A DNA stretch of 64,000 nt, from IMG/VR virus record IMGVR_UViG_3300035698_022738, positions 1-64,000 of that record, one strand, 5' to 3'. How positions within the stretch are numbered: the stretch's first letter is position 1; each line of letters opens with the position of its first letter. Made by a program: the position numbers and the translations under genes. Of this stretch, positions 1 to 35,657 are shown one piece after another. Origin of the DNA: a virus. The notes beneath the pieces are model-generated. The model did not search any database. It was given only the letters and a program-made list of their open reading frames with translations, and was not told the DNA's origin.

Positions 1-3000
1 CCAGGCCAGCATGATCAGATTTCTCATGGGAATTGGGCGGATGGAAAAGGGGTTGTCAATTGGAGAGAACGAGTTGTACAGAACGACGGAAAAGCTGTTG
101 GACATCAAATCACGACCAAAGATGAGTTGGAGCAAGTTCTTAGAGGAACAAAAGGTCTTTGGGACCCAAACCCCAACAAGCTCCCTGTCTATATCAATCC
201 TCCAGGATCAATAGATGACTATCTTGAAAAGCTGACCGAGCAGCATAGCATAGAGGCTATAAACGAAAGGCGTTTATTTGTTTTTATGGTAGACAACAAG
301 ACTAGAGCTCTCGTCCTGCCAAGTGATATCACTTGGCAGGATTCCCACTGGGCACTTGCTGACTCTGTCTCAGGTCAGATACGGGGAGGACAGCCAGGGT
401 TCCTTTTAGGAGAGCGGGGAAATGTTTCAGATCAGGTGAATAACCTGTTGGATGGCTCAGTGCATGGGCGTGTTTATTTCAAAGAACCGTCTACGGAAGA
501 CTTTAATCTTAAGCTACAGATTGAAAGAATTGAGTTCAATATTGACTATGCTGGTGTTGTGAACACAAGAAACGAAAATTTTGCGTTCAATCTCGACTAT
601 GGGGATCCCTCTATCGGTGTTCAGTCGGGGGACGCTCGTGATAAGGCCTATGATAATATCTACGCTGCTATGGAGCAGCTCTCTAAGTTTGGGCTTGCCG
701 ATGATACTCAAGTTTTGATCCGTGATTGGTCGTTATCAGACGGTGTGCTCACAACTCTCAAACATCTTCCAGGTCAACACGATCAATTCTCTCATGAAAG
801 TTGGGCAAGGCAGGGAGTATTGTCAGGGTTTGAAGACTTTATTCAAGAGGATTACAGAGGACCCAGACCTGAGAGTTCGAGTAAATACGATGAGATGAGG
901 AATCATTATCTACTCCCTCCGGAGGCAGACAGTCCGATCATGGAAGTAAATGACCTGGCCGGAAGTGCCGCCGTTGAGGGGACAAAGAAATTTGTTCAAT
1001 ACCTATACGCTCCGGATGATCCAGATAAATGGGATGAGGACTACTGGTATGAACTCTCGTGGGATGCCGCACAAAAGATTGGAGAATCTTTTGATCCAGA
1101 GATTATAGAGGGTGAGTGGGGAGCTGACTTTTTCAGTGATGGGTACTTTACCGGAGACAAATTCAAAGACCGGGTGGATGATCTCATCAACGGCTGGAAT
1201 GAGCGCATGCCAACAAGTAATCTCACAGGTTTGTCTATGATGGAAGTAGCATCCGACCTTTTTGGTGTTGGTGAATCTGAATTCCAGAAAAATGAAAAGC
1301 CGATGTATGCCGGGGAAGAAGAGGGTAGTGAGAGGAGTGTCGCAGTTAGGGAGAGCCTGCCTCTGGGAGATGTGAGATATTCATTTCCGTTTGAAGAAGC
1401 TTGGAGAGATATGGAGATTCTGCCTCTCGGCTTTCCGACTGACTTCGAGTTTGCAGATGAGAGTAGAGCTGCAACCAGGTACATGCTTGGTAAGATGTAT
1501 GAGAATACTCAAACAGAGTTAGAGGCCGCAGGGGTAGAGAGTGTTATACTTTTCAGGGGGGTTCCGGCGCACAGGTTGGGAGATACTGAGACAGGGGCTG
1601 TCATTGAAATTGAGTCAAATACTCTGACAAGTTGGACAACTAACCCAGAGGTGGCTGCTCAGTTTGGAAGACGGATCGTAGCCGTAGTTCCAAGGGATCG
1701 TATTTTGTCTACCGCAAAAACAGGATTTGGAACATACCCACAGGCAGAGGTTGTGCTCATTGGCGGAATGGGGGGAGATCAAGCTCTTGTTTTGGATACA
1801 CCTGAAGCTGAGAGGATACAAGGTGGAATCTTTGGGGGTGCGTTCAAGCATCTCCCTGGTCAGCATGAACAGATTTCACATGGCAATTGGGCGGACGGCA
1901 GTTTAGAAGGCGATCCTATCCAGACCTCCGACATGTTTATTGTCGATGGCCGTGTGTGTGCATCTATCTTACGGGAGACTAGGGGCTACCATTCAGTTCA
2001 TCCCAATCAAATAGGAGTCTATATCAATCCAGAGAGCTCCCAGGATTATTTGGAAACTCTGAAAGCCCAGAATGGCGACTTGGAATACTACCCGAAGTTT
2101 GAAGTAAGAGTGCTCTATAACCCTAAGACAAGAGCTTTGATCTTGCCCTCCGATCCGATCTACCAAGACTCTCATCAAATGCTCGCTCAGGCCGTTGTGG
2201 GGCGTGATTTGGGGAGCATTGAATTTGATGAGTACGATTCGGGTGACTCCCTAGAAGCATCCTATGTGGGCAATGATTTACTGGACTCTTCGGTGCATTT
2301 GGTATTAGAGATTGACCCAGATGCGGGGTTTGTATTTACAGAGGTTGGAGCAAGTGTTCCCTTTGCCGGAGCAAGTGGAGAAAAGGCCTGGGATAACATC
2401 TATGATGCCTTTGATGCTCTGCACAAGTGGGGCCTGCCAGCGGAAACAAAGGTTGAAGTCTTTGGAGGGAGTTCCTTCAGAGATGTATTGAATACCACCC
2501 TCAAACATCTCCCAGGACAGCATGAACAGGAATCTCACGGAAACTGGGCGGATGGGCGGCCTTCCCTTCCGAGAGGTGCCATCACTGATATTGAGACAGT
2601 AGACAAAGTTTTGTCGAATGTGACAGGGCTCTGGAAGGCAAATGATGAGTCGGATGGGGTGTATATAAACACTCCCCTTGACCAGTATGTCGAAGTCCAG
2701 AAGGAGTTGAAATCATCTTTTGGGGAACCAATGGCATATTTGCCAGCTCTATTTGATCCAAAAACAAAGGCATTGATTTTTCCGAGAAGCCTCGTCTTTG
2801 ACACTCGACATGGAGGGATTGCAAAGAGTGTAACAGGCAATGATGGCGTCACAGAAAAGTACACGACAGATAACCCGCTATTCATTGATTTGATTGATAC
2901 TGAGCGGGAGCTTTTGGACAGGTGTGTACATTTGGAAGTTTTCCTTCGTCCTTCAGAGGATGGGAAAGTCTTGATTCCGGAGGTCACAGCTAATATAGAT

Positions 3001-4587
3001 TATGCCGGGTTCAAAAATGCCAGATACGACAACAAGAACAAAGCATACGACAATATCTACAAGGCTTTCGATAAGATGACCACTCTCGGGTTTCCTGAAG
3101 GCACGAAAGCCAGGATTACGGATAACTCGTTGACATACCCTGTCACGGAAGTTGACACGACCCTCAAACATCTACCAGGCCAGCATGAACAGGAATCTCA
3201 CGGCAATTGGGCTGATGGAATGGTGAAATACGAGAAGCGATTGGGATATGTTCAAGCTCCAAATCCAACCACAAACCCGTTAGATTATACAGACTCGGAG
3301 AAATATGCCCTCGATAAGTTGGGACGATCTTTGTCTACTCTGCACGACTTTTACGGAGAGTTTGATGATTTCCCCGAAGATATGAAAGAGGAATTATACT
3401 CCGTGATGCATGATGCTAGAGATGCTAAAAAGGAATGGCAAGTTGCCATCAAGAAGGAAATCAGCGTAGGAAACATTAAGCTCACAAAAGGGCAGTATAG
3501 TGGGAACTACGGAGATTTTACTGTCGAGGGCGGTCCTTGGAAAGAACCCGCTGACATATCAAGGAATGATCTTGACCTGAGAACTGGTCCAATTGTCCCT
3601 ATGTCAGAGTATCTGTGGCATGTGACAACAGCTGCCACCCAGCTAGAATCTGAGGGCTATATATTGAAGTCTCGGGATGATCTGGCTATGCAGCAAGGGA
3701 CAGGCCTTGGTGGGGGGGATGATACAACTATCAGTTTTTCCGATGACGAAGCGGTAGCAGAGGGTGTATACCGGGCCATGATTGAAGGCAGGGCTGTAGC
3801 CAGGGGTGACATCTCATTTCGTGATATGTTTGATGCCGCAGCTGAGGGTATCGAGGCAGATGAGCCGTGGGCTGGCAGATGGCTTGCATCAGTCACAGGC
3901 AGAACGAAATATGTAGATGAGACTCTTGCACCTGGGGATGCTATGCCACATGAGTTCGAGGCACTGGATGATGGGTATAACGCATTCGCTCTGGGGGTTA
4001 TGTCTCAGCCCATGACTGTTGAAGAAATCAACAGTTTTGACCCCCGTCTCGCAGATGATGGAACACGAGCAGAGGAGATCATACTAAGCCGCGCTGGGTT
4101 TGGTGGTATATTGGATGAGGTAGAACGAGCAAAAAGAAATTATGATGACTTCGAGTGGTCAGGGGTTGAACCTGACCTGTCATTTGAGCCAGTCGATTAT
4201 ACAGATGACGGAGAGCCTCGGTATAAGCACTTCTTGAGAAAAGTATCTCCAATGGAAAAACAAGATAAATACTTCAGTGCTTACACGACATGGCTGGGCC
4301 AGCGAGAAATTGCAAATGGTCCGATGAACCCTTTGTTCTGGAGCACTGATGTACAGTTTCTGGCAAACGCAGATAGGAGCGATATCCAGATACTCCACTA
4401 TCGGTCAAAGCCTGAATCTGTTGGACAGAGAATGGGGTCTCTCGCAGAATGGAGAACGTGGAACGGGGAGGCAGTTGTGTTTGACTCTCCGGCCAGGCAG
4501 TCAATGAATTATGTGGAAGATCAACTTGTCAAAACAAAGTTTGGTGAGAAGGTGATAGAGTCGCTCTACTTAGAGGTATACGACTGA
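1..4587 (+). CDS. Large modular protein with KHLPGQH motifs and ADP-ribosyltransferase-like module (5' truncated)
   Basis: The reading frame is open from base 1, so the gene begins before the window; 1528 codons are visible. Five copies of the motif KHLPGQH(E/D)Q..SHG.WA punctuate it (bases 1-, 760-, 1846-, 2503-, 3166-). Three ~200-residue copies of an unknown module each end just before a motif and share a KAYDNIY.AFD..... signature. Between motif copies 2 and 3 lies an ADP-ribosyltransferase-like domain: FRGV near codon 516, TSWTTN near 541 and QAEVVL near 581 match the R, S-T-S and (Q/E)-x-E motifs of the family. A LWHVT...TTISFS stretch near codon 1205 may be a second, divergent ART-like fold. 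By position it is probably a head or virion-associated protein; delivery into the host is inference. The stop overlaps the start of the next gene (TGATG). Confidence 0.8.
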   Translation, partial: PGQHDQISHGNWADGKGVVNWRERVVQNDGKAVGHQITTKDELEQVLRGTKGLWDPNPNKLPVYINPPGSIDDYLEKLTEQHSIEAINERRLFVFMVDNKTRALVLPSDITWQDSHWALADSVSGQIRGGQPGFLLGERGNVSDQVNNLLDGSVHGRVYFKEPSTEDFNLKLQIERIEFNIDYAGVVNTRNENFAFNLDYGDPSIGVQSGDARDKAYDNIYAAMEQLSKFGLADDTQVLIRDWSLSDGVLTTLKHLPGQHDQFSHESWARQGVLSGFEDFIQEDYRGPRPESSSKYDEMRNHYLLPPEADSPIMEVNDLAGSAAVEGTKKFVQYLYAPDDPDKWDEDYWYELSWDAAQKIGESFDPEIIEGEWGADFFSDGYFTGDKFKDRVDDLINGWNERMPTSNLTGLSMMEVASDLFGVGESEFQKNEKPMYAGEEEGSERSVAVRESLPLGDVRYSFPFEEAWRDMEILPLGFPTDFEFADESRAATRYMLGKMYENTQTELEAAGVESVILFRGVPAHRLGDTETGAVIEIESNTLTSWTTNPEVAAQFGRRIVAVVPRDRILSTAKTGFGTYPQAEVVLIGGMGGDQALVLDTPEAERIQGGIFGGAFKHLPGQHEQISHGNWADGSLEGDPIQTSDMFIVDGRVCASILRETRGYHSVHPNQIGVYINPESSQDYLETLKAQNGDLEYYPKFEVRVLYNPKTRALILPSDPIYQDSHQMLAQAVVGRDLGSIEFDEYDSGDSLEASYVGNDLLDSSVHLVLEIDPDAGFVFTEVGASVPFAGASGEKAWDNIYDAFDALHKWGLPAETKVEVFGGSSFRDVLNTTLKHLPGQHEQESHGNWADGRPSLPRGAITDIETVDKVLSNVTGLWKANDESDGVYINTPLDQYVEVQKELKSSFGEPMAYLPALFDPKTKALIFPRSLVFDTRHGGIAKSVTGNDGVTEKYTTDNPLFIDLIDTERELLDRCVHLEVFLRPSEDGKVLIPEVTANIDYAGFKNARYDNKNKAYDNIYKAFDKMTTLGFPEGTKARITDNSLTYPVTEVDTTLKHLPGQHEQESHGNWADGMVKYEKRLGYVQAPNPTTNPLDYTDSEKYALDKLGRSLSTLHDFYGEFDDFPEDMKEELYSVMHDARDAKKEWQVAIKKEISVGNIKLTKGQYSGNYGDFTVEGGPWKEPADISRNDLDLRTGPIVPMSEYLWHVTTAATQLESEGYILKSRDDLAMQQGTGLGGGDDTTISFSDDEAVAEGVYRAMIEGRAVARGDISFRDMFDAAAEGIEADEPWAGRWLASVTGRTKYVDETLAPGDAMPHEFEALDDGYNAFALGVMSQPMTVEEINSFDPRLADDGTRAEEIILSRAGFGGILDEVERAKRNYDDFEWSGVEPDLSFEPVDYTDDGEPRYKHFLRKVSPMEKQDKYFSAYTTWLGQREIANGPMNPLFWSTDVQFLANADRSDIQILHYRSKPESVGQRMGSLAEWRTWNGEAVVFDSPARQSMNYVEDQLVKTKFGEKVIESLYLEVYD

Positions 4588-6872
4588 TGAGATATAGAAC
4601 TGGAATTATGCGAAGAATGGTATCAGGTGGGGAGCCGTCGCCGGAAGATGATTTGAGAGATGTTGAGTTGGTTCCCGAGAGTTGGGAAGAGGAGACAGAA
4701 CTGAAACATCTCCCTGGTCAACATGACCAAATCTCTCATGGAAGTTGGGCTCAAGGTAGTGCAGAGGAGCCCGTGAGTCGAACACCTATCACAACAGTTG
4801 AACAAAGAAGGGAGCTCTTGGCTCAAAAGGATTTGTATGTCGAAGGCAATTTTCAGGATGGGCTGATGGGATATGCTCTGAATCCATCTAGTTTTGAGGA
4901 TGTCGTTCAATTTTGGAAAGGGGGCAATGTGGCCCCCAAAAGAGTTCCTGTCCTATATCATCCCAAAACCCACACACTTGTTTTTCCAGATGAGCCAACA
5001 GGACATCATAGAGAAGTCTACCTGGGTTTGTTCAATGTTCCCTTTGTTTATCCCAGTGTTCCATCAGAAGGAGTGCGTGAAGCTCAAACCTACGCAGAGG
5101 GGTTTTCTGATTCTTCAGTCCATCTCTACTTGAATCTTGACAAAGAATACAACATTGTACGGGTGGATGCTGATATAACATTTGCCGGAGAGGGATTTGG
5201 CGGATACGGTATGGGAGAGGACGAAAAAACAAAGGAGAGAGCCTACAAGAAAATTTACGAGTCTTTCGATAAACTGAAGGAAATAGGAATCTCTCCAGAG
5301 ACATCTGCAACTATCTCAGACTACACACTCTCCGGAAATGAACTCTCGACAACTCTCAAGCATCTCCCTGGTAGGCATGAGCAAGAATCTCATGGAAATT
5401 GGGCTAAAGGCAGTTCAACAAGTCTGCAAGAAAAATATACATCCAAAAGAATGTCGTTGATCGAAATTGTTGGAAAGTTGGAGCCCGAGGTTGTTGTCAG
5501 GGTAGCATCCAACCAGATTCCAGAGGGCTTTGGAACATACTATAATTATGAGGGAGAATCTGATTTTTGGTCCCCCCCAAAAGATATTTTGTTTGATGTT
5601 GTTGCCCAGTTCAAAAATCCAATCTTAACTGAGATGTCTGAAAATCTCATTGAACCTGAAAGTCTCGTCGAGGATGCCAGGGCGGCTATGCAAGAGTTGG
5701 GCGGCGGCGGAGAGGATGGATTGGATAACGCTCTTGCTCAGGGATTTCGAGTTGTAACTGTACGAAGGTCCACTAATATAGGTGGATGGACAAGGAGAGA
5801 TGACGAGCTATATATCGTCAAAACAGAACCGTCCAAGTGGTTGGAAGTGCGAGAGAGCCAGGGAACATCTCCAAAAATTGAATCTTCTCAAGGGCAAATT
5901 CCAGAAAACATTAAGTCCATGAGACTTCGAGACATTGATAGAGAAAATGGACAAATGAATCGGTACATATCGGGCGAGCAAGACATCGACGACCCCCTTG
6001 CGCTGAAAGTTGATTCTATCCTGGCTGGGGATAGCAAGGACAAGATAGCTACTAATCTATCAAAGGCAGCTCGTATTTCGTATGATGATGCAAACAGTCT
6101 CATTAAAGGATGGGCACAAACATCAAATGATGGTGATGGGCTGGCTTTGGGAGTCCAGCAAGCGGTGTCCGAAGAGTTTGGAATTCCCATGCAAGATTGG
6201 CAAAAGGAACATATGGCTCGTGTTCAGAGTAGTAGGGAAGAGCATTTTCCTGGGATGATCTATGAGACGGATGCCTATCCTTTTGAGCTAGGTTATCATA
6301 AGGTTCTGTCTGCCGAAACTCTTTTGGATAAGGAATGGAGTGAGTTCGGCAAAGAAAAAACAAAAACCATGCTGCGCGTCATGTATGATCAGACACAGAC
6401 AGAGTTGGAAGCAGCCGGGATTGAATATGTCACAGTGTTTAGGGGCGTTGGGTCCTCTATTCCGGAAACTTTCGAGGATTCTCCGTGGAAGAGTATGGAC
6501 AATCTGTCAATGAACCCGATTTCGAGTTGGTCAACATCTCCTTTAGTTGCCTCAGGATTTGGGAATACTGTGCTCGCGATGCGGGTTCCCAGAGAGCGTA
6601 TTTTATCGACTCCCCAGACGGGTTTTGGCTGTACAAATGAATTTGAGGTTGTCCTTCTCGGAGACCCCAAAGGTCAAGATACTGCTATAATTTTCCCAGA
6701 ATATTTAACTCAGTCATATCCACATGGATCACCCGTCAAAGTCTATGACCCAGATGACAATATCATCAAAGTGGTTGATGACGGAGAAGTGATCTATGTT
6801 GAAGATATGACGAATGAAGAAAAGATGGAATACGGGGTGTGGATAGAGGGAATGGGTTGGACAGTCACATAG
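4587..6872 (+). CDS. Modular KHLPGQH-motif protein with C-terminal ADP-ribosyltransferase-like domain
   Basis: This 761-residue protein is a shorter relative of the upstream gene. It carries a KHLPGQH motif near residue 40 (base 4704), one copy of the repeated unknown module, a second motif (LPGRH variant, base 5358), a middle region I do not recognise, and a C-terminal ADP-ribosyltransferase-like domain. The last has FRGV near residue 617, SSWSTS near 647 and an E-x-E (EFEVVL) near 685, a better match to the R-S-E catalytic signature than the upstream copy. The family moves ADP-ribose from NAD+ to a protein or nucleic acid; the target here is unknown. Its ATG overlaps the previous stop, indicating translational coupling. 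Confidence 0.8.
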   Translation: MRYRTGIMRRMVSGGEPSPEDDLRDVELVPESWEEETELKHLPGQHDQISHGSWAQGSAEEPVSRTPITTVEQRRELLAQKDLYVEGNFQDGLMGYALNPSSFEDVVQFWKGGNVAPKRVPVLYHPKTHTLVFPDEPTGHHREVYLGLFNVPFVYPSVPSEGVREAQTYAEGFSDSSVHLYLNLDKEYNIVRVDADITFAGEGFGGYGMGEDEKTKERAYKKIYESFDKLKEIGISPETSATISDYTLSGNELSTTLKHLPGRHEQESHGNWAKGSSTSLQEKYTSKRMSLIEIVGKLEPEVVVRVASNQIPEGFGTYYNYEGESDFWSPPKDILFDVVAQFKNPILTEMSENLIEPESLVEDARAAMQELGGGGEDGLDNALAQGFRVVTVRRSTNIGGWTRRDDELYIVKTEPSKWLEVRESQGTSPKIESSQGQIPENIKSMRLRDIDRENGQMNRYISGEQDIDDPLALKVDSILAGDSKDKIATNLSKAARISYDDANSLIKGWAQTSNDGDGLALGVQQAVSEEFGIPMQDWQKEHMARVQSSREEHFPGMIYETDAYPFELGYHKVLSAETLLDKEWSEFGKEKTKTMLRVMYDQTQTELEAAGIEYVTVFRGVGSSIPETFEDSPWKSMDNLSMNPISSWSTSPLVASGFGNTVLAMRVPRERILSTPQTGFGCTNEFEVVLLGDPKGQDTAIIFPEYLTQSYPHGSPVKVYDPDDNIIKVVDDGEVIYVEDMTNEEKMEYGVWIEGMGWTVT

Positions 6873-6878
6873 TTCTTA

Positions 6879-6913
6879 TTGCTCAAAAATGGGCCTTTGA
6901 ACGTTATTTGTAG
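6879..6913 (+). promoter_or_regulatory. Candidate phage promoter, TTGCTC / CGTTATTTGTAG
   Basis: TTGCTCAAAAATGG at 6879 followed by CGTTATTTGTAGTAGGAG at 6902 is almost repeated at 58572-58610, in each case just before a start codon. The CGTTwTATATAG-like box also occurs at 42641, 44206 and 48062. It is called by this similarity only; the -10 match to the bacterial consensus is poor. Confidence 0.4.
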
Positions 6914-6925
6914 TAGGAGAATTGT

Positions 6926-7198
6926 ATGAATGTTGATGATCTGCACTATTTGGTGCAAGGCTATCCTGGAAATAAGTGTTTGACTCATATCGTTACGAAA
7001 GATGGAAAGGCAATCTGTGGCCTTGGTGAGATTCCTGGGGTTGCTATGAAATTTTCGATTGATTGGGAGACTGCAATCTATACGAAGTTGTGTACAAAGT
7101 GCGCTGATCTGGTAGATATACATGAGTTGAACACTTCCCTCACATGTCGATATGAGTCATATCTGAAAGATTTTGGCATTGAACCCGCAGAGGGCTGA
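6926..7198 (+). CDS. Small unknown protein with CxxC and scattered cysteines
   Basis: This 90-residue protein begins at an ATG preceded by GTAGTAGGAGAATTGT, a good ribosome site. It has cysteines at NKCLTH, AICGLG, a CTKC pair and LTCRY, which could form a small zinc-binding fold. I do not recognise the family. It sits alone between the modular virion-type genes, downstream of a leader resembling the one upstream of base 58620. Confidence 0.7.
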   Translation: MNVDDLHYLVQGYPGNKCLTHIVTKDGKAICGLGEIPGVAMKFSIDWETAIYTKLCTKCADLVDIHELNTSLTCRYESYLKDFGIEPAEG

Positions 7199-7299
7199 CA
7201 GAGCCGTTTTAAGACGGTTTTGGTATGGAGATACACAAATAGAGCATAAAACGCAACAGGGGCCGTTCTGGGGCCTTACAGAGGACGTGGGAGGAAACG

Positions 7300-7590
7300 A
7301 TGGCAGACAAAAAGAAGAAAACTGGTGGTGTGATCTTGGATCGCTCGTTGCATATCAATCCCTACACTGAAGAGGGGAAAAAGGCGCATGACCAGATCAT
7401 GCGTGAGACGCTTGAGGCCCTCGGGGCAGAAGTGCCAGAGGATTTGAAAAAGCGCACGGATGCGGCAGGGCATATCGATATTGATGCCATGATCGAAAAA
7501 GAGCGCAAGGAAAGAGAAGGGGAGTCAAAGGTAGATGTTGGTGATCTGGCAGAGGCTGTGAAAGAACTTGAAGAATCTTTGGAGGAATAA
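7300..7590 (+). CDS. Small highly charged protein, unknown function
   Basis: This 96-residue, lysine- and glutamate-rich protein is probably helical; its C-terminal half (EKERKEREGE...AEAVKELEESLEE) could form a coiled coil. The ATG follows GTGGGAGG, a strong ribosome site. The stop overlaps the start of the next gene (TAATG), so the two are likely translated together. It could be a scaffold-like or partner protein for the downstream JAMM-motif protein; that is inference from coupling only. Confidence 0.7.
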   Translation: MADKKKKTGGVILDRSLHINPYTEEGKKAHDQIMRETLEALGAEVPEDLKKRTDAAGHIDIDAMIEKERKEREGESKVDVGDLAEAVKELEESLEE

Positions 7591-8453
7591 TGCGAGCCAG
7601 TAACTTGATTGCTGATCTACAAACTACCCTCAAGCATCTTCCAGGTCAGCATAACCAAGACGATCATGGAAGTTGGGCTCGTGGGCGTCAGTTGCCGTTA
7701 CCAGGGATGAACCCGCCTGGGTCTGAGTTCCCCAAAGTCTTCACAACTCACGGCAGTCAAACAGCAGATGCCGTGATGGTTAAGTGGGCAGAGGAAAAGG
7801 CTTTGCTTACTCATGAAGAGGGTCTGGCTATTGATGACTCCGGCAATGTGATATTTTCTGTTGTCGGAGAGAAGGATGTGATAAATCTCACAGATGACCA
7901 AGCATCTCAGATGCGTGATGCAATCTTCATTCATAACCATCCTGGAGCTGCCTTGACGTTTTCTGGGGAGGATTTGCTTACCTTTTCGCAACAAGAGGTA
8001 TTGGAGGGGCATGTGATTGGAGTAGATCACAATGGTCAATACAATCATTACAGTGTCAGTGCTCCGGAAGGAGACCCTGATAATTGGCCTGCTACTCCAT
8101 ACATTGCGGCTGCTTTGGATTCTGCTCACATCTCAGGGCTATACCTCTATGAGGTCATGACTGAGGACCTGGGCATTGATCAGTATGACGCCCAGGAACT
8201 TTGTGCGTCCTGGGAGAACGAGACGATTGGGAACTATTTTGACATGGACTACAAGGCTGAGGGAGTTAGGAGCAAAGAGAGCTTTGCCACAGAACATTGG
8301 GAGAGATTGAATGCCGCCTTCATTGAACGAGGCTATGGTCCTATTCCTCCGGCGGATGAATTTGCGATTCCCTTTGCATTTGACCCAGTTGACGCAGTTG
8401 ATCAGGCCAGGATGCAATCTATCTTATCTGGAGCATTCACACCATTCTTTTAA
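7590..8453 (+). CDS. KHLPGQH-motif protein with JAMM/MPN metallopeptidase motif
   Basis: This 287-residue protein has the KHLPGQH motif right at its N terminus (residues 15-30), as expected of a leader or targeting segment. It then has a JAB/MPN-type core: H115-x-H117-x7-S125-x2-D128 (IHNHPGAALTFSGEDL), the exact zinc-ligand spacing of JAMM enzymes such as RadC-like and deubiquitinase-like proteins. The upstream catalytic glutamate is not certain; E76-E78 are candidates. JAMM domains cleave isopeptide or peptide bonds; in phages they also occur in tail assembly factors, but there is no tail context here. Its neighbours are other KHLPGQH proteins, suggesting a shared fate. Confidence 0.75.
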   Translation: MRASNLIADLQTTLKHLPGQHNQDDHGSWARGRQLPLPGMNPPGSEFPKVFTTHGSQTADAVMVKWAEEKALLTHEEGLAIDDSGNVIFSVVGEKDVINLTDDQASQMRDAIFIHNHPGAALTFSGEDLLTFSQQEVLEGHVIGVDHNGQYNHYSVSAPEGDPDNWPATPYIAAALDSAHISGLYLYEVMTEDLGIDQYDAQELCASWENETIGNYFDMDYKAEGVRSKESFATEHWERLNAAFIERGYGPIPPADEFAIPFAFDPVDAVDQARMQSILSGAFTPFF

Positions 8454-8469
8454 TTAAACGGAGGTATAA

Positions 8470-9429
8470 ATGTCATCAATAACGATGATCCCAAGAAGGG
8501 AGAACTTCCCCCAGCAGGGAGGGGTTCGAGAGCATTTGATTCAGTTGACCAAGTGTATTGAGAGTTCAAACAAGTTCAACATTGTTCCATTTGGAGGGAG
8601 CCTCACTCATGTTGAGTCTTCATACAACTCTAAAGACAATATCAGACCGGACATCTATGTTTGTCACGGCGGATTTGAGCCGGAGCCCATTCAGGCTGTC
8701 TTGCGGAATCTAAGAGATGCCAAATTGATAGTGAGTGTTGCCAGGTGGATGGTTCCTGCTTACATGAGTGCAGTAACATACAAAACGGTAGTCATACCGA
8801 ATGGTATTGATCTCGATGATTTCAAGTCAGAGTATTTGCAGAGGGTCGAGACCAAGCCTGGGTATGTTTTGTATCCGAAGGCTGTCCCATATCATATGGA
8901 TGATGTATTTGATATCGCAGGGGCAATGCCAAAAACAAAGTTCCTGACAATCGCCAGGATCGAGAGGAACAAATATCCAAACAATATCCGGTGTATTGGT
9001 TTACAGAGTCATCGGTGGATGAAGAATTACATACGAGATGCTGCCTGCGTGCTACTGACCGGGCCTGAAGTCTGTCCAACGATTATGTTGGAGGCCTGGG
9101 CAGTTGGAACTCCGGTAGTGTTTCACAACTATGATCGAGGAGCCTGGGAGCTGACAACATGGGGACATAGCCATCCGATTTGTGTAGGAGCTATTCCCTA
9201 TAGGACCTTGCCAGAGGCAGTTCGTGCAGTTGAAGTTTGCAGGGACAACAAAGCCTATTATGGGGAAGCCGGTAAGCAAATGGTTGCCGATCATTTTCAG
9301 TGGAACAAACTTTTCAAACGATATGAAGGTGCATATGACGCACTCACGTATGGGGATATTGCCGTGCAAGATTTTATCAAAGCCGCGCAAAAGTGGTACA
9401 CCACGCGACCCTCGCCGTTGCCTGATTAA
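8470..9429 (+). CDS. GT-B fold glycosyltransferase (family 1/4 type)
   Basis: This 319-residue protein is preceded by a strong ribosome site (ACGGAGGTATAA). The C-terminal half carries the retaining GT-B signature GPEVCPTIMLEAWAVGTPVV, in which the two glutamates of the E-x7-E motif bind the nucleotide-sugar donor. A typical VIPNGIDLDDF segment separates the two lobes. Such enzymes transfer a sugar from a nucleotide donor to a protein, lipid or other glycan in the cytoplasm. It is the first gene of the sugar cassette that runs, with interruptions, to base 18999. Donor and acceptor cannot be read from sequence. Confidence 0.85.
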   Translation: MSSITMIPRRENFPQQGGVREHLIQLTKCIESSNKFNIVPFGGSLTHVESSYNSKDNIRPDIYVCHGGFEPEPIQAVLRNLRDAKLIVSVARWMVPAYMSAVTYKTVVIPNGIDLDDFKSEYLQRVETKPGYVLYPKAVPYHMDDVFDIAGAMPKTKFLTIARIERNKYPNNIRCIGLQSHRWMKNYIRDAACVLLTGPEVCPTIMLEAWAVGTPVVFHNYDRGAWELTTWGHSHPICVGAIPYRTLPEAVRAVEVCRDNKAYYGEAGKQMVADHFQWNKLFKRYEGAYDALTYGDIAVQDFIKAAQKWYTTRPSPLPD

Positions 9430-9730
9430 GAAAAAGGGGTATGGGCCAGACTGGATCAGACAGCGCAAGCTGGCTATGGAGCGTGATAATTACACCTGTC
9501 AGAAGTGTGGATACGTTGGAAAGAGGCGGAAGAGTAAGCCACGTAGATGGAGTGTGTCTGTGCATCATATCACAAAGATCAAAAACTTTGCCAACACCAA
9601 GACTGGAGAGGTTGACTACAAGACAGCCAACGACCTCTCCAATCTTGTTACTCTTTGTGATCGATGCCACAAAGCAGCTGACGGTCATACACCACTCAAG
9701 GGATTTTCTGGATTTCGAGGGAAGATATGA
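9350..9730 (+). CDS. HNH endonuclease
   Basis: The core is a classic HNH fold: CQKCG and CDRCH zinc-binding pairs around a VSVHHI...NDLSNLVTLC active-site stretch, in which the H-H, N and H residues are all present. About 126 residues from the ATG at 9350; the start is uncertain because the frame is open upstream inside the glycosyltransferase gene and the real site may lie near its stop. Phage HNH proteins are either homing nucleases or packaging partners of terminase. Its position inside a structural/sugar region, wedged between unrelated genes, favours a free-standing homing-type nuclease. Confidence 0.75.
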   Translation: MGILPCKILSKPRKSGTPRDPRRCLIKKKGYGPDWIRQRKLAMERDNYTCQKCGYVGKRRKSKPRRWSVSVHHITKIKNFANTKTGEVDYKTANDLSNLVTLCDRCHKAADGHTPLKGFSGFRGKI

Positions 9731-11397
9731 GCATTTTATCGGATGTTAAAGAAGCCTTGACTTTTGTTGAGTTGGATACAAGACTCAAACATCTTCCAGG
9801 ACAACATGACCAAGCAAGCCATGGGAGCTGGGCAAGCGGAACTTTTCGGAATGTCACTCAGTATATTGATCCGGACGAAGCTCGCAGGGCCAGGGCCTAC
9901 AATCCATCGGGACAGTCACTCACCGATATGTTTGCTTCCCAAGAGGATGAGGATGATTGGGTATGGTCAGAGGATGAGGGTGATTGGGTGTGGACAGGGG
10001 AGGATGAGACTCCGACTCTGGATAAGCCTTCCGACTGGAACAAGGCTGCTATCGAGGAGTTTGGGCTCACATATGATCTGGCAGAGGCCGGATATGTTCT
10101 CACCAATGGAGACATGCTAGATTTCAGTGGAAAACGTGAGGGAGGTTCTCCAGGTGTGCGCTCATATGACCATAGACAAATAGGTGTGGCATTTGAGGAT
10201 TACGACATAGAGACACTGGGTGGAACTGACGGCATGATGTACTTCATGCAGGAATCCGGTGCTATCAGAATTAGTTACTATGGGGATGATGTAACAATAG
10301 ACATTGCTGCATATCCAACCACAAAGCAATTTGATTGGTTGAAAGAGATAGATGAGCAATATCCCATAATTTGGGATGTGACCGATCCGGCTACCGGGTA
10401 CAGACTGGATTCCGGAGAAGGGTTTAGGGATTTGAGGAGTGCGATTAGTGATGCCTACAATGACCCAAAAACGGGGTTTAAGCATCTCCCTGGTCAGCAT
10501 GAACAGATTTCACATGGCAATTGGGCAGACAGGTTGTCCTATTATAGAGACCAAAGACAAGAAATGTCGGATCAAGAATGGTCTGAGTTCAAACGCATTG
10601 AACGAGAGTGGATGCGCGGTCAATCCTCTATGTTCACTAAAGAGGAATGGGAGGCATTGAACGAGGCCTCCGATGATAAGCCTCTGCCAAGAGTAGGTGA
10701 ATCAACCAGTCCCCGGGTTGAATTTGATGTTGAAGATACATGCAGTCTGAGAATAGCACTCGATGAGCATAATATAAATCTGGATGATATCCAGGCAGTC
10801 GTTGATCTCAATATTGATGGTCTTGTGAGTCAGACAGAGGTCAGTGCTGACAACTCATATGATGATGACATTCGAGTGAAAAGTGAGATTGTAGATTCCG
10901 GCGGGAACTCCGTAGGGAATATTGAATTCAACATTACTTCATACTCTATTCGATTTGGTTACTTTAAGCTCGATAATCAGTATGGTCGCTCGGGGAACGC
11001 CGTAGAAATCATCAATGATATGGTGAGCCTAGGCCAGAGGGCTGGTATTGACAGAATTTCTCTTGAGGCTGACATTTCAATCGGAAAATACGCATGGGCA
11101 AAGCTTGGTTTTGATTACGACGGTTCCGATTATTCTCCGGAACAGGCGTCAGAAGTTTTTCAAAATTGGTTTAGTGATATGAGCTATCTCCATGGGTTAG
11201 ATGAGCCTCCGGATGGATGGCCCGAGTTTGAGTCAGCTATGCATGTAGCTGAATACGATCCTGGAATCTATGTCAAAGGGTCGAATATATCGAACAGAGA
11301 TGTACCAAAGGATATGACTTTACCACTCGGAAAGGCTTTCATGTTGGATGATAGAGGTCATGGAAAGTGGCACGGAGAGCTCTACGTCTGGAACTAA
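9727..11397 (+). CDS. KHLPGQH-motif protein with two internal modules, the second GNAT-like
   Basis: This 556-residue protein has the KHLPGQH motif near residue 21 (base 9787) and again near 252 (base 10480). After the first copy is a region with AGYVLTNGDMLDFSGK and DHRQIG, a pattern I associate with conserved phage and bacterial hypotheticals. After the second is a module ending AGIDRISLEADISIGKYAWAKLGFDY (split across residues ~435-465). Its ISLEAD...YAWAKLGF pattern resembles GNAT-like domains found in phage head-associated fusions. An acidic DDWVWSEDEGDWVW repeat separates the first motif from its module. It starts at ATG overlapping the HNH gene stop. The function call is tentative. Confidence 0.65.
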   Translation: MSILSDVKEALTFVELDTRLKHLPGQHDQASHGSWASGTFRNVTQYIDPDEARRARAYNPSGQSLTDMFASQEDEDDWVWSEDEGDWVWTGEDETPTLDKPSDWNKAAIEEFGLTYDLAEAGYVLTNGDMLDFSGKREGGSPGVRSYDHRQIGVAFEDYDIETLGGTDGMMYFMQESGAIRISYYGDDVTIDIAAYPTTKQFDWLKEIDEQYPIIWDVTDPATGYRLDSGEGFRDLRSAISDAYNDPKTGFKHLPGQHEQISHGNWADRLSYYRDQRQEMSDQEWSEFKRIEREWMRGQSSMFTKEEWEALNEASDDKPLPRVGESTSPRVEFDVEDTCSLRIALDEHNINLDDIQAVVDLNIDGLVSQTEVSADNSYDDDIRVKSEIVDSGGNSVGNIEFNITSYSIRFGYFKLDNQYGRSGNAVEIINDMVSLGQRAGIDRISLEADISIGKYAWAKLGFDYDGSDYSPEQASEVFQNWFSDMSYLHGLDEPPDGWPEFESAMHVAEYDPGIYVKGSNISNRDVPKDMTLPLGKAFMLDDRGHGKWHGELYVWN

Positions 11398-11958: not shown

Positions 11959-13983
11959 TTGAATAGACCAAAAGTGTCGATTGTAATCCCTTGTTACCAG
12001 CATCAAACAATAGTGAAGAGAGCTGTAGCAAGTGCATTAGCACAAAAAAATGCGCCCAAATATGAGGTCATTGTTGTAGATGACGGCTCTGATCCGCCAG
12101 TTGCGGCGATGAGGGGAGTTCGTCTCATACGGCACGAAGAGAATAAGGGGTTGGCGGCTGCTTTGAACACGGGTGTACGTGCATCCAAAGCTAGCCGTTT
12201 TGTGATTCTGGCCTCTGATGACGAGCTCGATCCACTCTACATGAACGAGATGACTAAGCATAAGTCCGATATTGTCAGCTGTGACATGATGATATCTGAT
12301 GAGCATATCCTGATGAGATCTGGAAATTTATACAGGCTCAAGAAGGGGAACTGTCACTCATATGCAGCCCTGGTAACTAGAGATATGTTCAACAGAGTGG
12401 GTGGGTTCAAGAACATGAATCCATCCTGGGAGGATTATGAGTTTTGGTTGAATTGTGCAAAGCATGCAGCAAAGTGGAAGCATGTAAAGAAGCCTTTGCA
12501 CATCTACTATCACACAAAGGATGGGCGTAACGAGCAAGCTCAGGGAAAGGATCGCCTGCTAAACGGCCTGCTGCACGGCTACCACGAGGACCTGTATGGT
12601 CTGGGTATGGGGCTCGTTGGAGTGGTGATCCCCTGCTATAAGCATGAGGAGTTTGTTCTCGAGGCCGTGGAATCCTGTCTACATCAAAGCTACCCTCATG
12701 TTCAGGTTGTTGTGGTTGATGACGGGTCCCCTGGTGATGTTAAAGGAGCTTTGAAGGGAGTGAGTGACCCTGAACGGCTTTCAATCTTGAGGCAAGATAA
12801 CAGGGGCCTATCAGGGGCCAGGAATTCAGGCATACGCTATTTGATATCAAAATTCTATCCAGAATACACAATGATGCTTGACGCAGATGATATGATAGAC
12901 GAGAAATTCATCGAAACCACAATGACTGTGATGCAGGATAATGAGTTTGTGTACACGGATGTCCAGTTCTTTGGGGATGCTTGGCACATCTATGAGCTAC
13001 CGGAATGGGATAGGAATTTAATTCTCCGTAAGCATTTGCATCCGTGTACATTTCTTGCACCGTCTAAAATGTTCGATAACGTGATTGAAAGTCGTGGTTA
13101 TTGCTATGATGAGGATATGAAGGACGGCTATGAAGACTGGGAGTTCAGCATTGCATGTGCGATGTGTGACTGGAATGGAAAACGTGTGCCACAGCCTCTT
13201 TTTCAGTATAGGCAGTTTCAAAATGGATCAATGAGAACTGAGGCAAACAAAAAGAACAAAGACCTTGCCAAGTATATTCGAGAGAAGCACAGTTGGATTT
13301 CGACTGGAGGTTGGAGACAAATGGCTGGATGTACATCTTGCGGAGGTAACAGAATGGCAAAGACAGGTCCAGGAGCTCTCAAGGTTATCGTTCCAGGAAT
13401 AGGTGAGGTAATCTGGGACACCCCGTTAAGTGTGGAGTACACTGGGATCACAACCAGCACCGTTACCAAGATTGGTCATGGAGGCCAAATCTATAAGTTT
13501 AGCGGTGATCTCGAAAAGCAGGCAAGGGGGTATGGACCCCGATTTATTGCGAAGGCTGTAGACGCCCATCTCTTCTCAGGCCCATTTGAGCTGAATCCAA
13601 TCAGTAGTGAACCCGAAGTACAAAGAGATGAAGAGGCGGAAACACTTCAGATCGAGAGGGCTCCGGTTGTTCAAGACCCCAAGGGAACGAGGCTGGTTGA
13701 TCTGCGAAGGCCTTTGACGGAAGAAGAGACTGAAAAGAAAAAGGAACAAGAGTTCGAGGAAATTCAGGAGCGGGCGGCTGCGGTTGTGATTGCCTCTGAT
13801 GACCTAACACAAATCAAAGGTGTTGGGCCAGCTTATGAGGAAAAGCTAAAAGCTGCTGGGTATACTTTCCTTGTCGATCTTGCTGGGGCACACTCCGATG
13901 AGTTGAGTCTGCTGCTGGGGATCAAATCTGAAAAGGCTGAATCGTTGATTGCAGCCGCTCTGGCAGTGATGAATGAATCTTAG
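11959..13983 (+). CDS. Tandem GT2-GT2 glycosyltransferase with C-terminal helix-hairpin-helix domain
   Basis: The TTG start has AGGTAGG upstream. The 674-residue product has two family-2 (GT-A) glycosyltransferase domains: residues ~1-215 (SIVIPCYQH, VVDDGSD, SDDE) and ~217-440 (VVIPCYKHEEF, VVVDDGSPGD, LDADDM as the DxD metal site). After a C-x2-C-G segment and a charged linker comes a helix-hairpin-helix near residues 615-670 (LTQIKGVGPAYEEKLKAAGY). HhH domains normally bind DNA or occur at the ends of ribosomal or repair proteins, so this fusion is odd. It overlaps the next gene by 11 bases. Bifunctional chain synthesis or alternating sugar addition is plausible. Confidence 0.85.
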   Translation: MNRPKVSIVIPCYQHQTIVKRAVASALAQKNAPKYEVIVVDDGSDPPVAAMRGVRLIRHEENKGLAAALNTGVRASKASRFVILASDDELDPLYMNEMTKHKSDIVSCDMMISDEHILMRSGNLYRLKKGNCHSYAALVTRDMFNRVGGFKNMNPSWEDYEFWLNCAKHAAKWKHVKKPLHIYYHTKDGRNEQAQGKDRLLNGLLHGYHEDLYGLGMGLVGVVIPCYKHEEFVLEAVESCLHQSYPHVQVVVVDDGSPGDVKGALKGVSDPERLSILRQDNRGLSGARNSGIRYLISKFYPEYTMMLDADDMIDEKFIETTMTVMQDNEFVYTDVQFFGDAWHIYELPEWDRNLILRKHLHPCTFLAPSKMFDNVIESRGYCYDEDMKDGYEDWEFSIACAMCDWNGKRVPQPLFQYRQFQNGSMRTEANKKNKDLAKYIREKHSWISTGGWRQMAGCTSCGGNRMAKTGPGALKVIVPGIGEVIWDTPLSVEYTGITTSTVTKIGHGGQIYKFSGDLEKQARGYGPRFIAKAVDAHLFSGPFELNPISSEPEVQRDEEAETLQIERAPVVQDPKGTRLVDLRRPLTEEETEKKKEQEFEEIQERAAAVVIASDDLTQIKGVGPAYEEKLKAAGYTFLVDLAGAHSDELSLLLGIKSEKAESLIAAALAVMNES

Positions 13984-14338
13984 CTGGTTGCCGTCCTGGT
14001 TAAGGGTTGTTATATACGCTCTGGCTGTATTCAGGCTGACTCATTTGGTTTTGAGGGAGGCGGGACCCTTCGACATCTTTGTGAGATTGAGAGCCTTGCT
14101 CGGAGCTTACGAAAGACTGGAAGTGTCAAAGAATGGTGAGGTCATAGCCATACAGACCTCGAAGGGCTTTTGGACTGATTTGTTTTCCTGTCCTTACTGT
14201 CTGTCTGGCTGGTTTGCCATCATTGCAGCTGTCGGGCTCGCCTCAGATTTCTTGTGGCTCGATCTGATCGCCCTCTGGCTTTGTGTGTGGGCAATTGTAT
14301 TCTTTGTCTTTAGGGCATTAGAGAGGGGTGAGGGATGA
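13973..14338 (+). CDS. DUF1360-like small membrane protein
   Basis: This 121-residue protein has hydrophobic segments near residues 9-24, 66-83 and 88-111. The central D.FSCPYCLSGWF matches the cysteine-pair signature typical of the DUF1360 family found in phages and sporulating bacteria. Its biochemical role is unknown. It starts inside the end of the tandem glycosyltransferase gene and its stop overlaps the next start (ATGA), so it is embedded in the sugar operon; a membrane anchor or regulator for glycosylation enzymes is conceivable but unproven. Confidence 0.75.
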   Translation: MNLSWLPSWLRVVIYALAVFRLTHLVLREAGPFDIFVRLRALLGAYERLEVSKNGEVIAIQTSKGFWTDLFSCPYCLSGWFAIIAAVGLASDFLWLDLIALWLCVWAIVFFVFRALERGEG

Positions 14339-15213
14339 GAATCCTGATAACAGGAGGCCTGGGGTATATCGGGGGCTATCTGGCAAAAGAGCTAAAGAGA
14401 GATGGACACGATGTTATCCTTCTTGATACTCTGTTCAATGCGGCATGGAATGCCAATGAGTTCAACGAGTTTGGAATTATGAGGGACAGCGTTACAAACA
14501 TTGATGTCGTTTCAAGGGCGTTGAAGGGTGTCGATGTTGTCTATCATCTGGCGGCCAGGATGGATTGGTCACAAGCCTTTAGGCACCCGATCAAGCTGTA
14601 CAGGACAAATGTACTGGGGACAGCCAACGTTTTGACAGCTGCCAGGGATGCCGGGGTTGACCAAGTTGTTGTGGCCTCATCAGCTGCGGTCTATGGAAAC
14701 GTGGATTATGCAGATGAGGACTGCCTGCCGATGCCCATCAATTCCTATGGCTGTACCAAGTTAGCCATGGAGGCTGTCTGTCGTGATTTTGGTATCATGG
14801 GGCTGAATGTTGTTGTTCTCAGGTTCTTCAACGTTTGGGGTGGCATGGTATCCCGATCTGTTGTCAATAAATTTGTAGATGGGCACTCGTCAATCTATGG
14901 AGACGGGGGACAAACACGAGACTTTGTTTACATTGGTGATGTCATTTCTGCTCTCATGCAAGCCCGTCTCTGGGACCCCCTAATCTACAACATTGGGACT
15001 GGGGTATCTATCTCAGTTCAGGATTTGTGGAGCATGATAAGAACTGATAAACCGGAGCTTGAAGGGTTAAGGTCTGGACAGCCTGAAATCTATATGTCAG
15101 GAGCTGACATGGATTCTACCTACCGTCGTGTACCTTGGAGACCAAAAGTAATGATCTCTGAGTTGAAAAAGACAGACATCATTAGACTGTCTTTGTCTGA
15201 ATCGCTTGATTAG
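14335..15213 (+). CDS. NAD-dependent epimerase/dehydratase (extended SDR family)
   Basis: This 292-residue protein shows the glycine-rich nucleotide-binding motif TGGLGYIG near residues 6-13, a serine region (ASSAAVYGN) and the catalytic Y-x3-K (YGCTK near residue 138), followed by RFFNVWG. Length and motifs fit UDP-sugar 4-epimerases and 4,6-dehydratases acting on nucleotide sugars in the cytosol. The exact reaction is not readable. It is coupled to DUF1360 upstream and followed by oxidoreductase, aminotransferase and acyltransferase genes, so it probably supplies or reshapes the nucleotide sugar that those enzymes modify. Confidence 0.88.
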   Translation: MRILITGGLGYIGGYLAKELKRDGHDVILLDTLFNAAWNANEFNEFGIMRDSVTNIDVVSRALKGVDVVYHLAARMDWSQAFRHPIKLYRTNVLGTANVLTAARDAGVDQVVVASSAAVYGNVDYADEDCLPMPINSYGCTKLAMEAVCRDFGIMGLNVVVLRFFNVWGGMVSRSVVNKFVDGHSSIYGDGGQTRDFVYIGDVISALMQARLWDPLIYNIGTGVSISVQDLWSMIRTDKPELEGLRSGQPEIYMSGADMDSTYRRVPWRPKVMISELKKTDIIRLSLSESLD

Positions 15214-15236
15214 AGTCCGGCTGGGAGGCCTATATA

Positions 15237-16085
15237 ATGCGAGTAGCTGTGTTTGGAGCGGGTTACTGGGGTATCAACTATATCAGGGAGTTGGGGAAGT
15301 ACGTTGAATTTGTAATAGAACCAAATGCTGAGAGAGCTGAGGTTGTGCGGAAAAAGTATGGAGTTGCAGTCTATCCTGACCTGCCAGAGGTGTATTTTGA
15401 TGCAGCCGTTGTAACAACACCTCCCGAGCATCATGTCAGGATTGCAAAACCAATCCTGGCCTCCGGCAGGAAAGTATTGATCGAAAAGCCGTTGGCTATG
15501 TCAGTCAATGAGGCCAAAGAGCTTCAGCCCTACGCAGAAAATTGCATGGCCGCTCTGGTCTACCTCTTTCACCCAACTGTCGAAACTCTCAGGAAAGAAG
15601 CTAGCGCGAGGATAGAATTCAAGCAGCTGTCTCATATATGTAGTCGTAGGACAAATGCAGGTCCTGTCAGACCATGGCAGACTGCAATGCACGACCTGGC
15701 TCCTCATGATATTTCCATTTTCAATTATGTACTGGAAAGCTCTCCGAAGTGGGTAAGAGCGGCAGGAAACAACGACTGGACATTTTTGAACCTTGGCTAT
15801 GAACTCACCTCGGGGGAAACATACGATGCCATTTGCTATGTATCATGGCATGGAGGGGAAAAAATCAGAAGAATTGAACTTGTGTACACTCCAGAGCACT
15901 CGGAACGGTTTGTATTTGACGATGTATCCATTGTTCTGTCAATAACCCCCTTGAGACGTATGCTTGACTCATTCATGAACGGGCAATGGGAAAAGAGCAC
16001 TTTTGACGATGGAATGGCTGTTATGCAGGTCTTGCAATCGGCGGAGAAAAGTCTCGCTATGGGTGGGCGGGAGGTAAAATTGTGA
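15237..16085 (+). CDS. Gfo/Idh/MocA-family sugar oxidoreductase
   Basis: This 282-residue protein begins with a Rossmann fold (VAVFGAGYWG) and has the family signature EKPLA near residue 84, where the lysine contacts the substrate. The family oxidises or reduces a ring hydroxyl of a sugar or nucleotide sugar with NAD(P). Followed directly by a DegT-type aminotransferase and a beta-helix acyltransferase, it resembles the WbpB step of the WbpB-WbpE-WbpD pathway (3-oxidation of a UDP-sugar acid). That substrate is inference from gene order. It overlaps the next gene by four bases. Confidence 0.87.
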   Translation: MRVAVFGAGYWGINYIRELGKYVEFVIEPNAERAEVVRKKYGVAVYPDLPEVYFDAAVVTTPPEHHVRIAKPILASGRKVLIEKPLAMSVNEAKELQPYAENCMAALVYLFHPTVETLRKEASARIEFKQLSHICSRRTNAGPVRPWQTAMHDLAPHDISIFNYVLESSPKWVRAAGNNDWTFLNLGYELTSGETYDAICYVSWHGGEKIRRIELVYTPEHSERFVFDDVSIVLSITPLRRMLDSFMNGQWEKSTFDDGMAVMQVLQSAEKSLAMGGREVKL

Positions 16086-17233
16086 GTACCTTACTAGGTC
16101 CTGATCTTCGTATTCTTGACCCAAAAATTCTCGAAAGAGTTGAAAGCGTACTCATGTCAGGACAGTTTATAAACGGTCCGGGGGTTGGGTTCTTTGAGAA
16201 GAGCTGGGCGGAAGTGACTGGCAGTGAGTATTGTGTTGGGGTTGCTTCTGGGTCGGCTGCACTCAAGTCAATACTCACCTATATCCGACGCAAATCTCCT
16301 GACAAGCAGAATGTTATCTTACCCAGGATATCCTTCTATGCGACGGCGGAAGCTGTTGTATCCGCTGGGTTTACACCCTATTATGTTGATGTCGGGCCAG
16401 ATGGGGGAATACTTGTTGGGGACGTTAAGAAAATCTTGGAAGGGGGAGGTACGATAAGCCCCCAGAGTATTGCAGCTGTCGTAGTTGTCCATCTGTATGG
16501 AAAAGCCCTTCAAATGAACACTCATATTCAAAAGCTTGCTCGGGAACTTGGAATTCCTTTTGTAGAGGACGCATGCCAAGCTCATGGTGTATTCAACAAG
16601 GATTTCCCGCATTACGGGATTGCAGCAGCCTATTCATTTTATCCGGCCAAGAATTTAGGGGCAGCTGGGGACGCAGGGGCCGTTGTAACAAACGATATGG
16701 AGTTGGCTGACTTTGTACGGGCATACATCAACTATGGTGATCCAAAGGGCCAGAAGTTCAATCATTCCCTGCTGGGTACAAATGAGAGAATGGACACAAT
16801 ACAGGCAGCTGTGTTGAATGGGAAACTAGAGAGTCTGAAATCTTGGAATAATCATAGGAGCCAGGTTGCTGGATATTATGCAGCCAGTGGACTGAAGTCA
16901 ATTGCTTCCCGGTCTGGTCTGGAAGTTGTCTCAAACTGGCACCTCTATCCAATATTAGTCAAAGAGCGGGATATTGTGATGGAACAAATGAGAACGGTCA
17001 GAAGGGTGTCTACGGGCAACCATTATCCATACACCTTGGATAGTTTGTTCCCTGGCGAGAGGGCTTTTGAATCACTCTGCTTCGGAGATTCCTACTCAAA
17101 AGTTCTTTCCGAGCATACAATGACTCTTCCCATAGGAACTCATGTTACAATGGAGATGGCTGCACAAGTAGTCAACGCCTTCCAATCAATTTGCAAAAGA
17201 GACAAGACATATACATGGAGGTTAAAAGAATGA
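16082..17233 (+). CDS. DegT/DnrJ/EryC1/StrS-family sugar aminotransferase
   Basis: This 383-residue product has a GTG start overlapping the previous stop. Family features are [10 protein letters not shown] near residue 56 (phosphate-cup region), VEDACQAHG near 162 and [15 protein letters not shown], whose lysine near residue 189 should form the Schiff base with PLP. These enzymes aminate a keto-sugar nucleotide using glutamate. The keto group would be made by the preceding oxidoreductase and the new amine acylated by the following enzyme, the WbpE position in the WbpB-E-D scheme. It ends in an ATGA overlap with the acyltransferase. Confidence 0.92.
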
Positions 17234-35261: not shown

Positions 35262-35657
35262 ATGCCAGCACCCAGAGTTTTGATAGTTGATGACGATGAT
35301 TCCGTTTTGCAGTATTTGAGTATGTGGTTCGAGCAGCAGGCTATTATGCATGAGTGCGTTTCGAGTTGTGCGGATGCCCTAGGTTTGTTGGATGACCATG
35401 TTTACGATCTCATCCTCATGGATATCCGCATGCCGGAAGAAGATGGAATTTCTTGTCGAAAGACTATTCTATCATTGCATCCCTCTGCATGTATCCGGAT
35501 GATCACAGGTTTTCCGGATGACGCTTTTGAGGCTGGCATACCTCCAGTCCAAGTTGTGCGAAAACCTTTCGAGAAGGGGCAATTGTTTGATATGTCTGTA
35601 CTGGCCTCTCAAAGGTATAGACATCGGGTAGGGGGGAGGGTAGTGAACTGTGCGTAG
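35262..35657 (+). CDS. CheY-like response regulator receiver domain protein
   Basis: Start at ATG 35262 (AGGTGAG upstream; a frame start at 35214 has no ribosome site). The 131 residues are a stand-alone receiver domain with every key residue: acidic cluster D10-D13, phosphoacceptor D54 (LILMDIRMP), T82 and K101 (RKPF). No output domain follows. Such a protein could be phosphorylated by host histidine kinases, or drain phosphate from them. Lying between tail and lysis genes in a phage, it is unexpected. It overlaps the lysin gene start. Confidence 0.85.
   Translation: MPAPRVLIVDDDDSVLQYLSMWFEQQAIMHECVSSCADALGLLDDHVYDLILMDIRMPEEDGISCRKTILSLHPSACIRMITGFPDDAFEAGIPPVQVVRKPFEKGQLFDMSVLASQRYRHRVGGRVVNCA

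Follow-up and report, generated by a model that had tools for sequence, protein, structure and literature searches.

Architecture of the motif-bearing proteins

The window analyzed here comprises 64,000 bases (bases 1–64,000 of the 96,851-base virus record IMGVR_UViG_3300035698_022738). A six-frame scan of the window locates ten copies of a short peptide motif, motif A, all of them on the + strand and within four large ORFs (1–4587, 4587–6872, 7590–8453 and 9727–11397). The proteins, their motif copies and their modules are:

1–4587, +: giant modular protein, C-terminal 1,528 aa; an ORF that probably continues from 95353–96851 of the record
1–45, +: motif copy 1, PGQHDQISHGNWADG, cut by the record start
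760–807, +: motif copy KHLPGQHDQFSHESWA
808–1845, +: ART-like cargo module (Pfam DRAT, E=0.0026, below the curated cut-off)
1846–1893, +: motif copy KHLPGQHEQISHGNWA
1894–2502, +: module R, ~200 aa, a repeated module with five copies in the genome
2503–2550, +: motif copy KHLPGQHEQESHGNWA, followed by module R
3166–3213, +: motif copy KHLPGQHEQESHGNWA, followed by a C-terminal module without a family, to 4584
4587–6872, +: 761-aa protein of the form leader–motif–R–motif–ART (DRAT, E=2.1e-6, above the curated cut-off)
4704–4751, +: motif copy KHLPGQHDQISHGSWA
5358–5405, +: motif copy KHLPGRHEQESHGNWA, heading the ART module (Pfam DRAT)
7590–8453, +: 287-aa protein with a 14-residue leader, the motif and a single JAMM-like (HxHx7SxxD) module, which has a relative elsewhere in the record
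7632–7679, +: motif copy KHLPGQHNQDDHGSWA
9727–11397, +: 556-aa protein of the form 20-residue leader–motif–module–motif–module (phrog_25452, E=0.0011)
9787–9834, +: motif copy KHLPGQHDQASHGSWA
10480–10527, +: motif copy KHLPGQHEQISHGNWA, identical in residues to that at 1846

An earlier note on this DNA had claimed ten copies in four proteins, and the scan found every one of them in its place. Its further claim of three invariant histidines held as well; they are spaced five residues apart in each complete copy of this genome (HxxxxHxxxxH). The HG dipeptide is not quite invariant, being HE in the copy at 760, and a Q is replaced by R in the copy at 5358. A profile search of the whole genome returned the window copies and three others beyond the window (81003, 95404 and 96049), with no degenerate copies. 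Shuffling the residues of the four proteins 20,000 times never produced the pattern HxPGxHxQxxH, and a backwards control pattern has zero matches in this genome.

The cut in the first copy simply reflects the start of the record, whose final 14 bases (96838–96851) are the same as its first 14 (1–14), inside a motif; the ORFs at the two record ends join in frame. Hence, the record probably closes on itself, which would give a single protein of ~2,020 aa with seven motif copies. We infer this join with the caveat that the motif repeat could mislead an assembler; the repeat is probably what broke the record at its ends.

In the giant protein, which starts directly after the gene in the major-capsid-gene position, the modules are arranged from the N-terminus in the order R, JAMM-like, R, ART-like, R, R and an unknown module. 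The five copies of module R lie at 95404–96048, 1–759, 1846–2502, 2503–3165 and 4704–5357. In an AlphaFold2 model of a motif–R–motif segment (7 sequences, mean pLDDT 77), residues 28–225 are folded and both motif copies have pLDDT values below 50; thus, the motif copies are predicted to be disordered linkers around a folded module. Neither the PDB nor viral structures gave a fold match to module R at E≤0.001. The JAMM-like module of the 287-aa protein (HNHP...S..D) has a 30% identical relative at 96049–96851 in the giant protein; to judge by this similarity, one JAMM-like cargo type is present in two architectures within one phage. RadC chains are among its weak Foldseek matches, which were obtained with a low-confidence model (pLDDT 45). 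A small motif protein encoded at 80952–81491 of the record (L010:953–1492) belongs to the phrog_17808 family; in the ORFs of the loci retrieved, BLAST gives 33 matches to this family, often close to the N-terminus of large proteins.

The record also has terL (confirmed by PHROG_9, E=5.5e-32) and a portal recognized because it resembles portal-like ORFs at other loci rather than by a curated family, and the MuF and capsid labels in this phage are positional; Phage_Mu_F has no match in any of the four window proteins. A 1,446-aa protein with a conserved H...S domain was considered as an S78-type protease, an assignment that profile comparison does not support, as that domain fails to match S78_2. 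Several other genes of the window were recognized by eye. Glycosyltransferase-, epimerase-, oxidoreductase- and aminotransferase-like genes, which look as if they served sugar decoration, are found amid the structural genes at 8470–9429, 11959–13983 and 14335–17233. The product of the ORF at 35650–37995 resembles a glycosidase in its N-terminal part and has a long (DP)n run close to its C-terminus, and that of the ORF at 59208–61796 is an apparent fusion in which a uracil-DNA-glycosylase-like stretch (GEAPGAEEDETG...) forms the N-terminus of a DNA polymerase A-like protein.

Spread and conservation of motif A

A strict DNA pattern for the motif matched 43 stretches among 2.9 million viral contigs. 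Its single match in 84,980 bacterial and archaeal genomes lies on an Anaerolineae MAG contig, which is itself a portal–MuF-like locus. A looser pattern, from whose matches those expected by chance were removed by a filter, recovered at least 166 copies in at least 139 proteins from at least 110 loci, nearly all on phage contigs. Going by these scans, motif A is common to many unrelated, mostly uncultured phages. A WhiB-like protein, noticed by eye, adjoins one motif locus (L075:295–639) and suggests actinobacterial hosts for some such phages.

Across 140 non-redundant contexts among the matches listed, the consensus is K/R-H-L-P-G-[QKR]-H-[DNE]-Q-x-[STD]-H-[GA] followed by a Gly-rich run, with the Gly enrichment extending to about +17; in this consensus, the H, P, G, H, Q, H and [DNE] positions were fixed by the search and the filter, the K/R and S/T/D positions and the Gly run were free in the loose scan, and L was fixed only partly, by the filter. 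Information in the same contexts drops to ~0 upstream of −4 and past +18, and every synonymous codon is used within the motif. This combination of flat flanks and free codon use marks it as an autonomous short motif operating at the protein level. There are no conserved neighbors of one domain family around it; instead, the flanking modules belong to many families.

Searches of named phages by tblastn with short motif peptides, which were probably too short as queries, returned no match; when longer motif proteins served as queries, parts of them had relatives, and the named phages that were inspected have neither motif A nor the second motif introduced below. PDB chains likewise gave no match to either motif. 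The motif letters were not found in the open-access text searched, and a junction peptide serving as a cargo attachment or release device is apparently undescribed.

Head proteins upstream and exchangeable enzymes downstream

The 63 parts upstream of motif A among the matches listed include 18 with PHROG portal matches, 11 with Pfam Phage_Mu_F, 10 with Phage_portal and one with the S78_2 protease. Downstream (n=138, matches listed), we recovered the ADP-ribosyltransferase exoenzyme (14), Mu_F (7), zeta toxin (5) and AAA_33 (4) families, along with ddrB-ParB, ART-PolyVal, DRAT, NUDIX, 2H and Hint. The junction can be delimited at locus L133, where portal homology stops at aa 494 and the motif begins near 519; here, none of the 1,019 matching phage records reaches 80% coverage of the protein. 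Similarly, at locus L054 a portal is followed by the motif and then by a C-terminal domain. Intein/Hint domains occur in several motif proteins, on either side of the motif (alignments A1, A2 and A6; loci L011–L266).

The arrangement is polar: among the matches listed, 34% of the first motif copies are within 60 residues of the N-terminus, and none of 115 last copies is within 60 residues of the C-terminus, the smallest such distance being 85 residues. Thus, the motif opens cargo modules and closes none. The neighbor clusters that can be named are head genes, namely portal, terminase, capsid and head protease. A prohead protease was recognized in 31 of 49 records (S78_2 in 19 and S78 in 13, with one record shared); its median distance to the nearest motif copy is 3.8 kb, and in 30 of these 31 records all copies are upstream of it on the same strand.

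These contexts bear out the placement of the motif at the borders of modules with mixed cargo, which the earlier note had claimed from this one genome: the JAMM-like module recurs in two architectures, and the cargo families recur behind the motif elsewhere. They also bear out the expectation that the motif would not be confined to one enzyme fold, given the near-zero flank information and the many families of flanking modules, as well as the suspected tie to head proteins, given the portal and MuF partners upstream. The proposed placement before or between modules is sharpened by the polarity into a rule whereby the motif stands at the head of a cargo module and, among the matches listed, never at the C-terminus; the motif is also widespread, and a second sequence takes the same place in other proteins. 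The suggestion of a packaging, processing or docking tag for mixed cargo survives in outline through the borders, the mixing and the head partners.

A second motif with the same grammar

We also uncovered a second motif, motif B (GNFGHxGRPG). In a 942-aa protein (L031:3257–6082), it is present at residues 399 and 843 and motif A at residue 13; the same contig has a second motif-B ORF upstream of the gene for this protein. Motif B was found in at least 168 proteins with at least 208 copies of the form GG(P)GSGNFGH(A/S)GRPG(E/Q)(V)GGS, with one invariant His only. The GGS at +12 to +14, which was not part of the query, is present in 165 of the 165 contexts listed. Among the matches listed, its upstream parts (n=59) include Phage_portal_3 (10), Mu_F (6), DUF2213 (5) and Phage_portal (4), and its downstream parts (n=118) ADP-ribosyltransferase (7), Mu_F (5), zeta toxin (4), ART-PolyVal (3), AAA_33 (3) and topoisomerase (2), as well as GNAT, Ntox50 and CdiA_C. 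Its polarity is comparable: in 52% of cases the first copy is no more than 60 aa from the N-terminus, and 0 of 134 last copies are as close as that to the C-terminus (matches listed).

Cargo of our virus also recurs at motif-B loci: the ART-like module at 808–1845 is related to modules that follow motif B in L216, L191 and L225, the 4587–6872 protein is related to locus L225 (E=1.8e-23), and both modules of the 9727–11397 protein have relatives in L240 and L242. Motif B is unrelated to motif A in sequence and has the same grammar and overlapping cargo. The occupation of one grammatical slot by two unrelated sequences speaks for a function of the slot. The apparent mutual exclusion of the two motifs (1/49 and 0/49 records) is not taken as evidence because both are rare.

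Function of the motif

We consider it highly probable that the motif is a tag of some kind for cargo of the phage head. With a probability of about 0.5, we favor a reading that combines this tag role with release as the leading, non-exclusive mechanism; a release or processing joint on its own would be a more tentative proposition, at somewhat under even odds. In the favored scheme, each cargo enzyme would be laid out as the motif, a Gly-rich flexible run and a folded domain. An upstream element, be it a portal or MuF protein, the cargo before it, a short, weakly amphipathic leader or in some cases a head protease, would put the chain inside the prohead. There, or upon entry into the next cell, a protease or the chain itself would make a cut at or close to each motif, and each enzyme, freed from its carrier and neighbors, would travel with the ejected DNA and act on the host, putatively in counter-defense or takeover.

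A release joint would explain why each cargo domain has its own motif, why none is C-terminal and why portal and MuF fusions carry it; a passive linker would be less conserved. On the other hand, the motif is long (~13 positions) and constant across phages with differing portal, terminase and protease families. Prohead-protease sites are usually short and phage-specific, and prohead proteases also cut capsid proteins. A motif that stays constant where the head proteins are unrelated and the proteases come from two families speaks against an ordinary site of this kind, and would be compatible with self-processing, the action of a conserved host factor or some other general chemistry. Also speaking against release, the motif was not seen in the neighboring capsid-protein clusters, and the Streptococcus phage phiARI0462 carries the same cargo type on a MuF protein without it.

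A docking or encapsidation tag that is not cleaved, with the motif binding the capsid lining, the scaffold or the packaged DNA and thereby keeping cargo in the head, strikes us as unlikely. It best explains the position of the motif close to the N-terminus of stand-alone cargo proteins, and is consistent with the flexible linker after the motif and with the weakly amphipathic leaders (z of 0.45 ± 0.17 for motif A and 0.56 ± 0.14 for motif B). However, cargo fused to portal or MuF carries the motif though it is already anchored, one copy per domain would be redundant for a single chain, and the motif is constant while the head proteins of different phages are unrelated. Less probable again is an aid to threading during ejection, wherein the motif would be a soft start site from which the chain could be unfolded and threaded through portal and tail one domain at a time. 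Its presence before every domain, its disorder in the model and its absence from C-termini agree with this; however, flexibility would suffice for such a role, and an invariant 13-residue sequence is not needed.

We regard as decidedly improbable a recombination joint, i.e., shared DNA kept for module swapping with the peptide as a passive linker. The copies at 1846 and 10480 are 98% identical over 48 nt between unrelated flanks and have identical codons at 13 of 13 positions, with 5.5 expected; at the nucleotide level, this pair shows recent copying or recombination at the motif. Against this, between genomes the same codon is used almost at random (10,783 cases vs. 10,560 expected) while the residues are fixed, and the excess within genomes is small (923 vs. 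814 expected). As the residues are fixed and the codons nearly random between genomes, selection acts on the peptide; a DNA-level function as the main cause of the motif is ruled out by the varying synonymous codons. The least probable is a metal-binding micro-element, in which the His triplet, with its five-residue spacing, would hold Zn or another metal: although HxxxxHxxxxH is invariant in this genome, motif B, which occupies the same place in its proteins, has a single invariant His, and the sampled motif-A copies were chosen by a pattern that fixes all three.

Returning to the cargo tag with release, we propose, more tentatively still than the release joint itself, that phages share a portable cargo-attachment code. 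This would comprise at least two unrelated tags that join any cargo to any head carrier and release it, independently of the portal, terminase or protease type, and possibly via self-processing or a conserved host factor.

Relationship to known systems and implications

The closest parallels are with three known systems. First, the MuF polymorphic toxins of temperate phages are encoded in the head gene cluster and join the MuF head protein to interchangeable toxin or enzyme domains at the C-terminus (Jamet et al. 2017, PMC5576092). The motif loci resemble them in the fusion of a head protein to exchangeable enzymes in the head gene cluster and in the variable C-terminal toxin or enzyme domain. 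Unlike the MuF toxins, they have a fixed peptide at each junction (the words motif, linker and cleav are absent from PMC5576092), the motif is also found on portals and stand-alone proteins, and there are several cargo domains per chain. The N-terminal MuF of that class is lacking in the window proteins and present in 11 of the 63 upstream parts among the matches listed elsewhere. Moreover, MuF toxins are tied to temperate phages, whereas the strict motif pattern matched just once in those 84,980 bacterial and archaeal genomes.

Second, the polyvalent proteins of phages and conjugative elements are multidomain, likely packaged proteins with domains such as ART-PolyVal, ddrB-ParB and 2H, some of which are MuF or portal fusions (Iyer et al. 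2017, PMC5512222). The motif proteins, whose delivery is putative, likewise have several effector domains per chain, here the R, ART-like and JAMM-like modules. They differ in being punctuated by one repeated peptide, the terms "linker" and "short motif" occurring zero times in PMC5512222. Third, the T-even internal proteins are diverse and only their capsid targeting sequence is conserved (PMC3012670). The likeness to the T4 internal proteins lies in a short conserved N-terminal element on very diverse packaged defense proteins (PMC3012670). A further precedent for release is the removal of N-terminal propeptides of 20 aa and up by prohead proteases in SPN3US (PMC10052503). By description, the T4 element and the motif are set apart in that the T4 capsid targeting sequence is N-terminal on separate proteins, whereas the motif is repeated between domains and on portal and MuF fusions across unrelated phages.

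Thus, any domain behind motif A or B becomes a candidate packaged effector, including those with unknown folds such as module R. The discovery of enzymes carried in phage heads and delivered to the host along with the DNA has so far leaned on known domains, and the tag adds a further handle. If the tag alone frees or packages cargo, it would be usable for loading proteins into phage heads. More generally, the sorting and release of packaged effectors, a long-standing question, becomes directly testable.
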